The notes below the pieces were generated by a model. It had not been told where the DNA came from. It was given only the letters and a program-made list of their open reading frames with translations, and did no database searches. A stretch of 33,768 nucleotides of DNA from a virus, in the IMG/VR virus record IMGVR_UViG_3300037346_000491, positions 1 through 33,768 of that record. The stretch is one strand, 5' to 3'. Shown one piece after another: positions 1 through 33,768 of the stretch (positions are counted from its first letter, which is position 1; every line of letters starts with the position of its first letter). Position numbers and translations under genes: made by a program.

Positions 1-1
1 T

Positions 2-238
2 TTTATATCTACAAATGGTAGAAATGTCCACCCCACCCAAAAGCCCGTAGCCCTGTTTGAGTACCTTATTAAGACATATACCAACGAATGAGATCTTGTT
101 TTAGATAACTGTGCATGATCTGGCACTACTGGTATAGCATGCAGAAATCTAAACCGTAAGTTTATACTCATAGAGAAAGAACAGGTGTATATAGATATCA
201 TACACAAAAGATTAGACACAGACCGTTATACCACTTAA
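2..238 (+). CDS. DNA methyltransferase, C-terminal part (window edge)
   Basis: This is the end of a DNA methyltransferase whose start lies outside the window. The reading frame gives HPTQKPVALFEYLI, then NCAGSGTTG, where an in-frame UGA supplies the first glycine of GSGTT. These are the target-proximal HPTQKP block and the SAM-binding motif I of beta-class N6-adenine/N4-cytosine methyltransferases. The N-terminal motif IV (DLPYG) is missing here but present in the open gene at the other window end, so the two pieces are probably one gene. Position 1 is the third base of a codon. The gene ends in UAA, directly followed by a terminator. About 78 residues are visible. Confidence 0.85.
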
Positions 239-254: not shown

Positions 255-275
255 TTACACGCAAAAAAGAAAGTA

Positions 276-348
276 TAAAAAAACTATAAAAATACTTGCA
301 AAATAAAAAGAAATCAGTATACTATATTTGTGATTGCGTATATCATGT
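276..348 (+). promoter_or_regulatory. Strong early-type promoter, copy 1
   Basis: TTGCAA (296-301), a 16-bp spacer and TATACT (318-323) form a sigma70-like promoter. Upstream lies the A/T direct repeat TATAAAAAAACTATAAAAA. The same block recurs before the genes at 24100, 28244 and 31501. Just past the -10, TGTGAT at 329 begins an imperfect version of the palindrome seen in the 24000 and 31400 copies, a possible operator. It should drive the HTH gene at 380 and perhaps the genes beyond. Confidence 0.8.
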
Positions 349-23984: not shown

Positions 23985-24005
23985 TATCATGAAAAAAAGA
24001 AAGTA

Positions 24006-24073
24006 TAAAAAAACTATAAAAATACTTGCAAAATAAAAAGAAATCAATATACTCTCTTTGTGATTGTATCACA
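24006..24073 (+). promoter_or_regulatory. Strong early-type promoter, copy 2, with palindromic operator
   Basis: TTGCAA (24026-24031), 16 bp, TATACT (24048-24053). The upstream A/T direct repeat is as in copy 1. At the probable transcription start lies TGTGATTGTATCACA (24059-24073), a perfect 6-3-6 palindrome, well placed for a repressor. The same palindrome occurs in the promoter at 31428. It drives the Sak4-nuclease-initiator operon. Confidence 0.85.
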
Positions 24074-24099
24074 TCTTTATTACTTATATTTATAGTACC

Positions 24100-25110
24100 A
24101 TGCAGATCAAAATGTTTAGGCCAACAGATCACAAGGTGAAAGCCTTGATCTATGGAGCCAGTGGGGCAGGAAAAACAGTATTTGGAGGAACGGCACCAAA
24201 GCCAATCTTTGCAAGTGCAGAAAGTGGGTTGTTGTCTCTTTGAGAAAAAGAGGTGCCATTTGTTGAAATCAAGACCATCAAAGATCTTGAGGAACTTTTG
24301 GCATTTTTACAAAAAGCAGACCACAATTTTGAAACAGTGATAATTGACAGTATCACAGAAGTCAACGACATTATCAAACAAGAGATTGAAAAGAAAACGG
24401 GTAAACCAATGCAATTGAATGACTGGTGAACTTTGAGCAAAAAAATCAAAGATCTCTTGAGAGCTTTTCGTGATTTACCAATGCACACTCTTTTGATCTC
24501 ACAAGAGACAATAGAGAGAGACGGTGACACCATCACAAAAATCCTCCCGTCACTTAATGGAAAAAGCTCAACAGAGATTGCTAGTTTTATGGATGTTGTA
24601 TGATATATTTATATAGACAAGACAGGGGAGAGAAAAATCATGACGTCATCAGATCCAAGATTCATCACAAAAGATAGATCCAACAAAATTGGAAATGGTA
24701 CAGATGCAGATTTTGGAGTTTGGGTTGAAAAAGTAAAAGCAATAAAAATTGGAGATCAAAAAGTTGTCCATGATGATGCAATTGTACAAGATGAGAAACC
24801 ACAGGATGATCAACCAGTTGCACCAGTGGACAAAGTGCCAACAACAACAATTGAAACACCAAAGGAGGCAGAAACTCAACCAATACAAGCCAATCCAGTC
24901 ACTCCAACAAGATTGCCAGCCAATAAAGTGAAACAAGTGCAGATAAAATGGAGAGAATTTGCAGAAAAGAACACCTGGAACACCACAGACAGTGGCACCA
25001 AGAGAAAAGCAACAATGCAAAAATATTATGGTGTGACAAGTGCCAATGATCTCACAGTGGATCAAGCAGATGATTTTGTACAAAGAATTGACCAGGCAAT
25101 CAAAAAGTAA
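24100..25110 (+). CDS. Sak4-like RecA-fold ATPase (single-strand annealing/recombination)
   Basis: A 336-residue protein. Residues 1-210 form a RecA-like AAA_24 domain: Walker A YGASGAGKTVF (Lys25), Walker B ETVIIDSITE (Asp83), then LNDWGTLSKKIKDLLRAF and LLISQE. This is the Sak4 type of phage recombination protein, which works with a single-strand binding protein in annealing and replication. A Pro/Thr-rich linker (about 225-275) leads to a short C-terminal helical domain with KWREFAEKN and TMQKYYG. It is the first gene after early promoter copy 2 and is followed by a RecB-like nuclease, a common pairing. Three UGA glycines. Confidence 0.82.
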
Positions 25111-30747: not shown

Positions 30748-31134
30748 ATGACAAAAAAAACAGCACCACAATCACAAGTTGAGGCATCACCAGAGGATCT
30801 GGCATATACAGAGTTTGTATGGCAACAGGCAGGTGAAACAGATATGTACAAGACAATTTTGTATGATCTCATATTTGATGCAAAAAATGCACACAGAGTA
30901 AAAAGCATCACAGCAAAAAATGCAGATGACTTTGCAAGAGTAGAGATTGGCACAAATTTCCTTTGAAAATATATTGTCCAACTGGTCAATGATGTGATTT
31001 CATTTGTTTGAGAGGAACACGGACGAGAGGAAAGCGAGGATGAGATAAGAGAAAAAATATGACTCGAGTTATTGAAAAGATTTGATAAAAACTCTTTATT
31101 TTTTCAACAAGAAAACGCATGAGATACAAAATAG
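30748..31134 (+). CDS. Hypothetical protein, 128 residues
   Basis: An acidic, mostly helical protein starting in ACCATG context six bases after the nuclease. It has SPEDLAYTEFVWQQAGETDM and MYKTILYDLIFDAKNAH in the first half, then VQLVNDVISFVGEEHGREES and IREKIGLELLKRF. No family was recognised. UGA glycines occur in FLGKY, FVGEE, KIGLE and NAGDT. Its last 16 bases overlap the next gene, suggesting translational coupling. Confidence 0.55.
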
Positions 31135-31421
31135 TTGATACAGGGGTATCGTTTGACGCACACAGAAGAGCGGTAAGCGTGGATATCATAAAAAGACCTT
31201 TTTTCTTTTGGATGAAACAAAAACCAATGATGTATAAAGTGTTTTTTGATCTCTATGATTTCAAAGTTACGCACAAGGTATATAATGGATATGCGACAAT
31301 TGATAAAGACTGGATCAATCTCGGTTACAAAAACAGAAATCAGATCAAGAATTTATTGATCAAACATTTTGCAGGAGACTACACAATTGGTAACTTTTGC
31401 AACACTATAAAAAAACTATAA
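31119..31421 (+). CDS. Hypothetical basic protein, 100 residues
   Basis: A basic protein overlapping its neighbour by 16 bp. It begins MRYKIVDTGVSFDAHRRAVS and has KPMMYKVFFDLYDFKVTHKV and WINLGYKNRNQIKNLLIKHF. It is probably a compact alpha/beta fold. No in-frame UGA. Its 3' end reads into the A/T repeat of promoter copy 4, so gene and promoter overlap. No family was recognised. Confidence 0.55.
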   Translation: MRYKIVDTGVSFDAHRRAVSVDIIKRPFFFWMKQKPMMYKVFFDLYDFKVTHKVYNGYATIDKDWINLGYKNRNQIKNLLIKHFAGDYTIGNFCNTIKKL

Positions 31422-31475
31422 AAAACCTTGCAAAATAAAAATAAATTAGTATACTCTCTTTGTGATTGTATCACA
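31405..31475 (+). promoter_or_regulatory. Strong early-type promoter, copy 4, with palindromic operator
   Basis: TTGCAA (31428-31433), 16 bp, TATACT (31450-31455). The perfect palindrome TGTGATTGTATCACA lies at 31461-31475, as in copy 2. The upstream A/T direct repeat overlaps the preceding stop codon. It drives the three repeat-protein genes. Confidence 0.85.
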
Positions 31476-31500
31476 TCTTTATTTCTTATATTTATATACC

Positions 31501-31974
31501 ATGCAATTTAATAAGACACGAGATCAAATGAATATCGTTGAAAAATTATCTTGTGCTAAATTCTTCCAAGAAGAAGCACTCAAAGACGAAAGCCGAAGAA
31601 TCAGAAGAGAGGCGTATAAACTTCTTTGATACACAAAAGAAGCACTCAAAGATTACAATCCTAAGACCAGAACAGAGGCATATAGAATGTTATGATACAC
31701 AAAAGAAGCTCTCAAAGATGACGACCGAAGAATCAGAAGAGAAGCATATAGAGTGTTATGATACACAAAAGAAGCACTCAAAGATAAAGATTCTGACATC
31801 AGAAGAGAAGCATATAGAATGTTATGATTTACCAAAGAAGCACTCGAAGATAAAGATTCTGACATCAGAACAGAGGCATATAGAATGTTATGATACACAA
31901 AAGAAGCTCTCAAAGATGACGACAGAAGAATCAGAGAAGAAGCTAAGATATTCTTAGACATGTTGGTCAAGTAA
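31501..31974 (+). CDS. 22-residue helical repeat protein, paralogue 1 (6 repeats)
   Basis: A 157-residue protein made almost wholly of 22-residue repeats with consensus LGYTKEALKDDDRRIRREAY plus two residues. Each repeat would form two helices, like HEAT or leucine-rich-variant solenoids. A 24-residue cap (MQFNKTRDQMNIVEKLSCAK) precedes them and IFLDMLVK ends them. The Gly of every repeat junction (LGYTKE or LGFTKE) is coded by UGA, so in the standard code the gene would break every 66 bases. The first of three paralogues with near-identical starts and leaders. Function unknown; a protein-binding scaffold is likely. Confidence 0.75.
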
Positions 31975-32005
31975 TAAAACCTTTTATATTACTTATTTAT
32001 ATACC

Positions 32006-32548
32006 ATGCAATTTAATAAGACACGAGACAAAATGTACGCAGATGAAAAATTATCTTGTGCTAAATTCTTCCCAGAAGAAGCACTCAAAAATGACGACTG
32101 GTACATCAGAAGAGAGGCGTATAGATACTTTTGATACACAAAAGAAGCATTTGAAGATAAAAACCGAATTATCAGAAGAGAGGCGTATAAACTTCTTTGA
32201 TACACAAAAGAAGCACTCAAAGATGACGACTGGTACATCAGAAGAGAGGCGTATAGAGTGTTGTGATTTACCAAAGAAGCTCTCAAAGATAAAGATCCTG
32301 ACATCAGATTAGAAGCATATGGGGTTTTTTGATTTACCAAAGAAGCACTCAAAAATGACGACCAAAATATCAGAAGAGCCGCGTATAAACTTCTTTGATA
32401 CACAAAAGAAGCATTTGAAGATAAAAACCGAATTATCAGAAGAGAGGCGTATAAACTTCTTTGATTTACCAAAGAAGCACTCAAAGATAAACATCCTGTC
32501 ATCAGATTAGAGGCAAAGATATTCTTAGACATGTTGGTCAAGGAATAA
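32006..32548 (+). CDS. 22-residue helical repeat protein, paralogue 2 (7 repeats)
   Basis: A 180-residue paralogue of the preceding gene with the same cap (MQFNKTRDKMYADEKLSCAK) and end (IFLDMLVKE) but seven repeats. Repeat variants include YFGYTKEAFEDKNRIIRRE and LGFTKEALKDKDPDIRLE, and two of the repeats are almost identical in DNA (KNRIIRREAYKLLG), suggesting internal duplication. UGA codes the Gly in all six junctions. Start in ACCATG context; no separate promoter visible in the 31-bp gap. Confidence 0.75.
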
Positions 32549-32578
32549 AACCTTTTATATTTCTTATATTTATATACC

Positions 32579-32923
32579 ATGCAATTTAATAAGACACGAG
32601 ATAAAATGTACGCAGATGAAAAATTATCTTGTGCTAAATTCTTTCCAGAAGAAGCACTCAAAGACGAAAGCCGAAGAATCAGAAGAGCCGCGTATAAACT
32701 TCTTTGATACACAAAAGAAGCACTCAAAGATGACGACTGGTACAACAGAATAGAGGCATATAGAATGTTATGATTTACCAAAGAAGCTCTCAAAGATGAC
32801 GACTGGTACATCAGAAGAGAGGCGTATAGATACTTTTGATACACAAAAGAAGCATTTGAAGATAAACATCCTGTCATCACAATAGAGGCAAAGATATTCT
32901 TAGACATGTTGGTCACTGAGTAA
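32579..32923 (+). CDS. 22-residue helical repeat protein, paralogue 3 (4 repeats)
   Basis: A 114-residue paralogue with the same N-terminal cap and C-terminal IFLDMLVTE but only four repeats. Its repeats are mosaics of those in the other two genes (KDESRRIRRAAYKLLG from one, KDDDWYIRREAYRYFG from another). This pattern fits unequal recombination between copies. UGA again codes each junction Gly. Position: last gene of the cluster begun by promoter copy 4. Confidence 0.75.
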
Positions 32924-33327: not shown

Positions 33328-33768
33328 ATGAACCAAGTTGTCCATTGAGACTGTCTTGTAGAGATGCAGAACATACCAGATAAGAGTATTGATATGATAC
33401 TATGTGATTTGCCTTATGGGACTACTGCGTGCAAATGGGATACCATAATCCCCTTTGAGCCACTCTGGGAGCAATACAAGAGGATTATCAAAGATAATGG
33501 AGCTATTGTATTGACAGCCAGTCAGCCGTTTACCAGTGCTTTGGTGATGAGTAATATCAAGATGTTTAAGTATGAGTGGATTTGGGAGAAAGAACAGGGA
33601 GTTAATTTTCTTTCTGCGAAAAAAAATCCTATGAAAGTTCACGAGAATATCCTTGTATTTGGTGGTAAAAATTATAATCCACAAATGACAACAGGAACAC
33701 CATATTTAAGTGGTAAAGGAACAAGCGGTGATGTTACTAATAATGTGACTAAAATTCAGACAAAAAAT
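33328..33768 (+). CDS. DNA methyltransferase, N-terminal part (window edge)
   Basis: The first 147 residues of a beta-class DNA methyltransferase (N6-adenine or N4-cytosine). It opens with [20 protein letters not shown], where the Gly of HGDCL is a UGA codon; motif IV is LCDLPYGTT (Asp27-Tyr30), then [17 protein letters not shown] and the YEWIWEK segment. The gene is cut by the window end within the variable region. The missing motif I and HPTQKP block are encoded at positions 2-238, so the genome probably closes here. It may protect phage DNA from host restriction. Confidence 0.88.

Follow-up and report, generated by a model that had tools for sequence, protein, structure and literature searches.

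A 22-residue repeat family, shuffled in three adjacent genes of a code-25 phage and present in other uncultivated viruses

The window analysed here, a 33.8-kb virus record (the whole stretch of 33,768 nucleotides), carries three adjacent genes built from near-identical repeat units, and relatives of the unit in about ten other viruses indicate a real, apparently undescribed viral family. We regard it as an even chance that the products are accessory proteins, made early, that bind other proteins in a modular way and exchange their binding faces by unequal recombination, with host factors as the most likely targets. The phage infects a bacterium whose genetic code is unusual. Its genes were read with code 25, in which TGA encodes Gly, and this assignment is right because, across 23 conserved genes of the window, TGA supplied 140 of 428 Gly codons. 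In the repeat genes, Gly15 of the unit was encoded by TGA in all 14 full units; with an in-frame TGA in every one of them, standard annotation would split each repeat protein. The features on which the argument draws are the following.

274 to 336, plus strand: right-hand promoter copy before a conserved HTH gene (380-592), 57/63 identical to 31406-31468; bounds the inserted segment
31406 to 31505, plus strand: promoter (TTGCAA at 31428, TATACT ending at 31455) and leader up to the start codon; carries one of the 27-mer copies and matches 24004-24104
31461 to 31475, no strand assigned: palindrome TGTGATTGTATCACA directly after the -10 element, putative operator
31501 to 31974, plus strand: repeat gene A, 157 aa; 5 full units at 31585-31914, half unit/C-cap at 31915-31974
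31980 to 32005, plus strand: short leader duplicated along with gene B, by alignment
32006 to 32548, plus strand: repeat gene B, 180 aa; 6 full units at 32090-32485, half unit/C-cap at 32486-32548
32550 to 32578, plus strand: short leader duplicated along with gene C, by alignment
32579 to 32923, plus strand: repeat gene C, 114 aa; 3 full units at 32663-32860, half unit/C-cap at 32861-32923
33328 to 33768, continuing at 1-238, plus strand: N6/N4 DNA methylase gene (Pfam PF01555, 4e-5, slightly below the curated cut-off)

The code-25 ORFs and their aligned caps bore out the initial annotation, which had described three adjacent paralogues with common caps and ends. The repeat period in the cluster was 66 nt, that is, a 22-residue unit; the N-cap common to the three proteins reads MQFNKTRD(Q/K)M...EKLSCAKFF(Q/P)EEALK and the C-cap EAKIFLDMLV. 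The unit numbers first given (6, 7 and 4) hold if the last half unit of each gene is counted, and the full units are 5, 6 and 3. A 307-aa minus-strand ORF free of TGA (31993-32916) was considered as an antisense reading and rejected as a by-product, since the plus-strand protein is kept in unrelated viruses that use the standard code.

That the units had been recombined in different orders was also confirmed, as the closest partners sit at non-matching positions: B1 and C3 were 98% alike, B2 and B6 95%, A1 and B2 92%, and B3 and C2 92%. Between genes, units of the same index were 78% alike versus 76% for units of other index, which is no real gap. The longest identical tracts at shifted registers measured 72, 65, 55, 54 and 49 nt, with exact tracts of up to 72 nt in the raw sequence, and they went beyond those in data in which the 66 columns were permuted (p of 0.002 or less at each rank). 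The pN/pS ratio was 0.20 at core positions of the unit versus 0.74 at positions 2-5, ratios that are descriptive because the unit pairs are not independent; the core value indicates that the reading frame is under selection. Purifying selection is thus strong on the frame and much weaker on the variable face. The ratio at positions 2-5 stayed under 1 and did not support diversifying selection, and no reverse transcriptase of the kind found in a diversity-generating retroelement was noticed among the ORFs of the window. These data also bear on whether the array simply expands and shuffles by recombination and has little or no function, as near-identical duplicated units, varying copy number and absence in close relatives might suggest. 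We consider this quite unlikely, given the core pN/pS, the conserved caps, the dedicated promoter, and frames that are unbroken in each of the three genes as well as in unrelated viruses.

AlphaFold2, run on the three paralogues, predicted for gene B a confident solenoid (mean pLDDT 88, pTM 0.76) in which helices of 11 and 5 residues alternate. A family member encoded by an unrelated virus was likewise modelled as a solenoid (pLDDT 90.5) with the same two helix lengths; the models drew on two or three sequences. In the second-look structure aligner, the leucine-rich repeat variant (LRV) protein 1lrv ranked first both for the window model (Z 9.6, 178 residues, rmsd 5.8; next Z 7.3) and for the model of the relative (Z 11.6, 185 residues, rmsd 5.7; next Z 9.4), though Z values under about 13 can reflect an arrangement common among repeats. 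In Foldseek against the PDB, the best TM-score among the top matches was about 0.40. The predicted models share with LRV the alternation of long and short helices. However, the viral unit has 22 residues while that of LRV has 24, an LRV profile was not among the Pfam matches of the repeat genes at E values up to 10, and the Cys cluster of the iron-sulphur domain is missing, each of the three proteins having a single Cys (C18). Pfam HEAT_2, in contrast, scored 55.3, 52.0 and 33.5 bits for the three genes against a curated cut-off of 27.7 (E = 8e-15 for gene A), although several shorter relatives missed this cut-off. The units carry the D-x-D-x-x-I/V-R-x-x-A pattern of HEAT (PF13646, PF02985) and score above the curated cut-offs, but the alignment to the HEAT profile was limited to its positions 7-25 out of 31, which is the first helix, and the modelled 22-residue unit pairs an 11-residue with a 5-residue helix, whereas a HEAT unit has two antiparallel helices of similar length in about 30-45 residues. 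The statement that the repeat is shorter than classic HEAT therefore holds, and a fair description of the predicted protein is a HEAT-like sequence with LRV-like geometry in a 22-residue unit. A known family was thus found for the fold (HEAT/LRV-like) and not for an established function.

These scores could also mean that the proteins are ordinary HEAT-repeat proteins taken from a host. We judge this highly improbable, because the match is confined to the first helix, the second helix has five residues, and the 353 genomes of the Gracilibacteria class and 380 of its phylum gave only weak generic matches. No clear family member was present in these genomes or in 396 of a second phylum. Binding of DNA or RNA, as by HEAT-like proteins of the AlkD type, is very unlikely in our estimation. 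Genes A and B do encode basic proteins (pI 9.2), R7 is invariant and R or K is frequent at position 12, but charge is not conserved: the gene C product is neutral overall, and acidic proteins (pI 4.8-6.1) make up most of the family.

The 22-residue unit was recovered by degenerate DNA patterns in 12 further uncultivated IMG/VR records (G359, G703-G709 and G711-G714). G706 and G707 encode an identical protein and G705 and G714 have flanking genes in common, so that the 12 records represent about ten distinct viruses. The largest set was in G359 (34 kb, standard code), where 37 units extend over a run of adjacent ORFs, including several cap-sharing paralogues with exact copies of 103 and 127 nt between them. 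G712 has two adjacent paralogues, both with the N-cap MKNYNNLT. The minimal member, G709, has 71 aa and caps like those of the window (EKLALIKFFPEEAKKD...EAKIYLD versus EKLSCAKFFPEEALKD...EAKIFLD; pattern EKLxxxxFFPEEA...EAKIxLD), while those of the other members were more distant. Uniform order in all relatives was not observed: the closest relatives lack the cluster, and the other viruses differ in number and order of units. Over 84 pooled units, R7 and A10 were present in 84/84, Y11 in 79/84 and G15 in 80/84, a conservation only partly independent since units had been selected with a motif that constrains these residues; the most variable positions in this pool were 5, 13, 4, 2 and 3. Overall, variation sits at 2-5 and then at 13, 9, 12 and 18. 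An N-terminal hydrophobic helix was found in G703b and G708, and G714 and G705 have additional, other C-terminal domains, as expected for a binding module used in several settings.

Several further observations were made in these records. Repeat proteins at L080 (5619-6092) and L075 (1-387) have an N-terminal hydrophobic helix and are probably membrane-anchored. L081 (6200-6538) encodes a more degenerate version of the repeat that keeps the 22-residue spacing, with NW replacing GFT (GNWVKAENDYNYKIRLEAFRHTKNWNKAEDD), and L044 (28406-29371 of the G359 record) a separate 321-aa protein with repeats of about 30 residues (NALLQENGFFWLQEDGSYLLRENG), located among late genes. At L083 (4880-5636), the repeat gene and its neighbour both start with MSTNYNKLT, which looks like a duplicated gene start. 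The contigs G359, G704, G708 and G713 start or stop in or beside repeat arrays; assemblies probably break there, and repeat genes may be under-reported as a result.

Other searches gave no relatives. Whole-protein and cap-peptide scans and a TGA-based TKEAL pattern found none, and none of the six loci picked up by a code-25 unit pattern was a real match. There was no convincing match to the family in PHROGs, none in GenBank phages with four queries (where the low-complexity filter of BLAST may mask repeats), none in BFVD with E below 0.1, and only a weak HEAT-like match, in Scytonema, among plasmids. The best PADLOC match (1.7e-5) was taken as generic repeat similarity, and none of the matches there described such proteins. 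In the open-access literature searched, HEAT repeats were not linked to phage and Gracilibacteria in any paper, and a paper on code-25 phages does not mention repeat or HEAT proteins (PMC10746230). Within PHROGs, GenBank phages and the searched literature, the family thus appears to be undescribed.

The initial annotation had credited the cluster with its own strong promoter. TTGCAA-16-TATACT does precede it (31428-31455), but the element is not unique, the promoter-leader being a copy of that of the operon at 24 kb: 31406-31505 was identical at 94/101 positions to 24004-24104, the promoter-leader before the Sak4 gene of that operon. The promoter 27-mer occurs at 296, 24026, 28149 and 31428, against an expectation of 0 in the window. 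Exact copies of TGTGATTGTATCACA were found in the window only at 31461 and 24059, that is, after two of the four promoters. As a separate matter, the four near-identical promoters mark transcription units of the phage and provide a usable consensus for a code-25 phage. In three relatives, whose terminases are about 77-80% identical to that of the window phage, the genes homologous to 31119-31421 and to the HTH gene 380-592 adjoin with one promoter-like stretch between them. The repeat genes were not found in these three records by a search that recovered the cluster in the window as positive control, and this absence with syntenic flanks indicates that the cluster is an insertion. The three repeat genes, a small ORF and the methylase thus form one inserted segment between two promoter copies; this segment may have entered by recombination at the promoter. 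It resembles phage morons and accessory early genes in that it was inserted among conserved genes and brings a promoter; however, its content is a new repeat family. The methylase frame runs across both record ends once a single base is removed at the junction. With both ends inside one gene, the genome would be near complete and permuted, and the record, though classed as linear, is probably a complete permuted genome. In the relative G1, a related methylase occupies a different place in the gene order.

Recombination genes were located within three genes of the repeat genes in 5 of 11 records, against a rough chance baseline of one quarter: Sak4 in G359, G713 and G704, and a RecT-like gene in G714 and G703. 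In addition, an SSB gene was near the repeat genes of G703b and G704, and a RecE/YqaJ-type exonuclease was four genes off in G705. The other records had terminase, structural or DNA polymerase III genes nearby. This neighbourhood agrees, suggestively, with the promoter that the cluster has in common with the Sak4 operon. The repeat proteins might accordingly be accessory scaffolds of recombination or replication that bind the single-strand annealing protein, the exonuclease or SSB, which we regard as the main alternative, though a tentative one. The nearly identical promoter-leader of the Sak4-exonuclease operon and the Sak4, RecT-like, SSB and exonuclease neighbours speak for it; yet 5 records in about 11 is not compelling next to a chance of about a quarter, the other records have terminase, structural or pol III genes as neighbours, Sak4 is present without repeat genes in the relatives of the window phage, and membrane-anchored members misfit. 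The link to the recombination module, which had been missing from the initial annotation, is as concrete a lead as a role in defence or towards the host.

In the reading that we prefer, that of modular binders of host factors, the cluster would be an inserted, moron-like transcription unit of three soluble short-repeat solenoids. It would be transcribed from the copied promoter-leader together with the recombination genes, hence early in infection, a timing suggested by the promoter copy and by the neighbours in other viruses. Each unit would consist of an 11-residue and a 5-residue helix, with the near-invariant R7, A10, Y11 and G15 keeping the stack together. Residues 2-5 (in the loop and the opening turn of the long helix), 9, 12, 13 and 18 are predicted, from the helix boundaries, to be exposed and aligned along the solenoid as a binding face, and the proteins would act through binding other proteins. 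Against this reading, variation in the loop at positions 2-5 is common in ordinary HEAT repeats too. Copy-number variation had been proposed to yield diverse binding surfaces, which agrees with variable positions that are predicted to be exposed and are the same set in unrelated viruses; the binding itself we infer. The nearest engineered counterparts are the alphaRep proteins, which were the top PDB sequence and Foldseek matches and combine HEAT-like repeats in a constant frame with variable positions that bind proteins (PMC3754942). However, alphaReps are designed and have two-helix units of about 31 residues, so that the analogy concerns how they work. Unequal recombination among near-identical 66-nt units, within or between paralogues, would alter the number and order of faces and leave the caps fixed, and one cassette could thereby yield several related binders. 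They would most likely serve to bind host factors, for example proteins of defence or DNA processing, and to block or recruit them. The defence evasion or host modulation first suggested may be such a use, but PADLOC gave no informative match and pN/pS at positions 2-5 did not exceed 1. A wider version, in which phages across codes and hosts hold a repertoire of cap-sharing binders and swap or re-count units to gain new specificities against changing host defences, seems rather doubtful to us.

The results define a family of viral repeat proteins, a natural counterpart of alphaRep and DARPin libraries with a constant frame, a variable face and shuffled units, and indicate that the repeat genes of code-25 phages are hidden from standard annotation. 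The 71-residue protein of G709 offers an easy structural target. If the faces bind host proteins, the order of units across related phages would be a direct read-out of the arms race.
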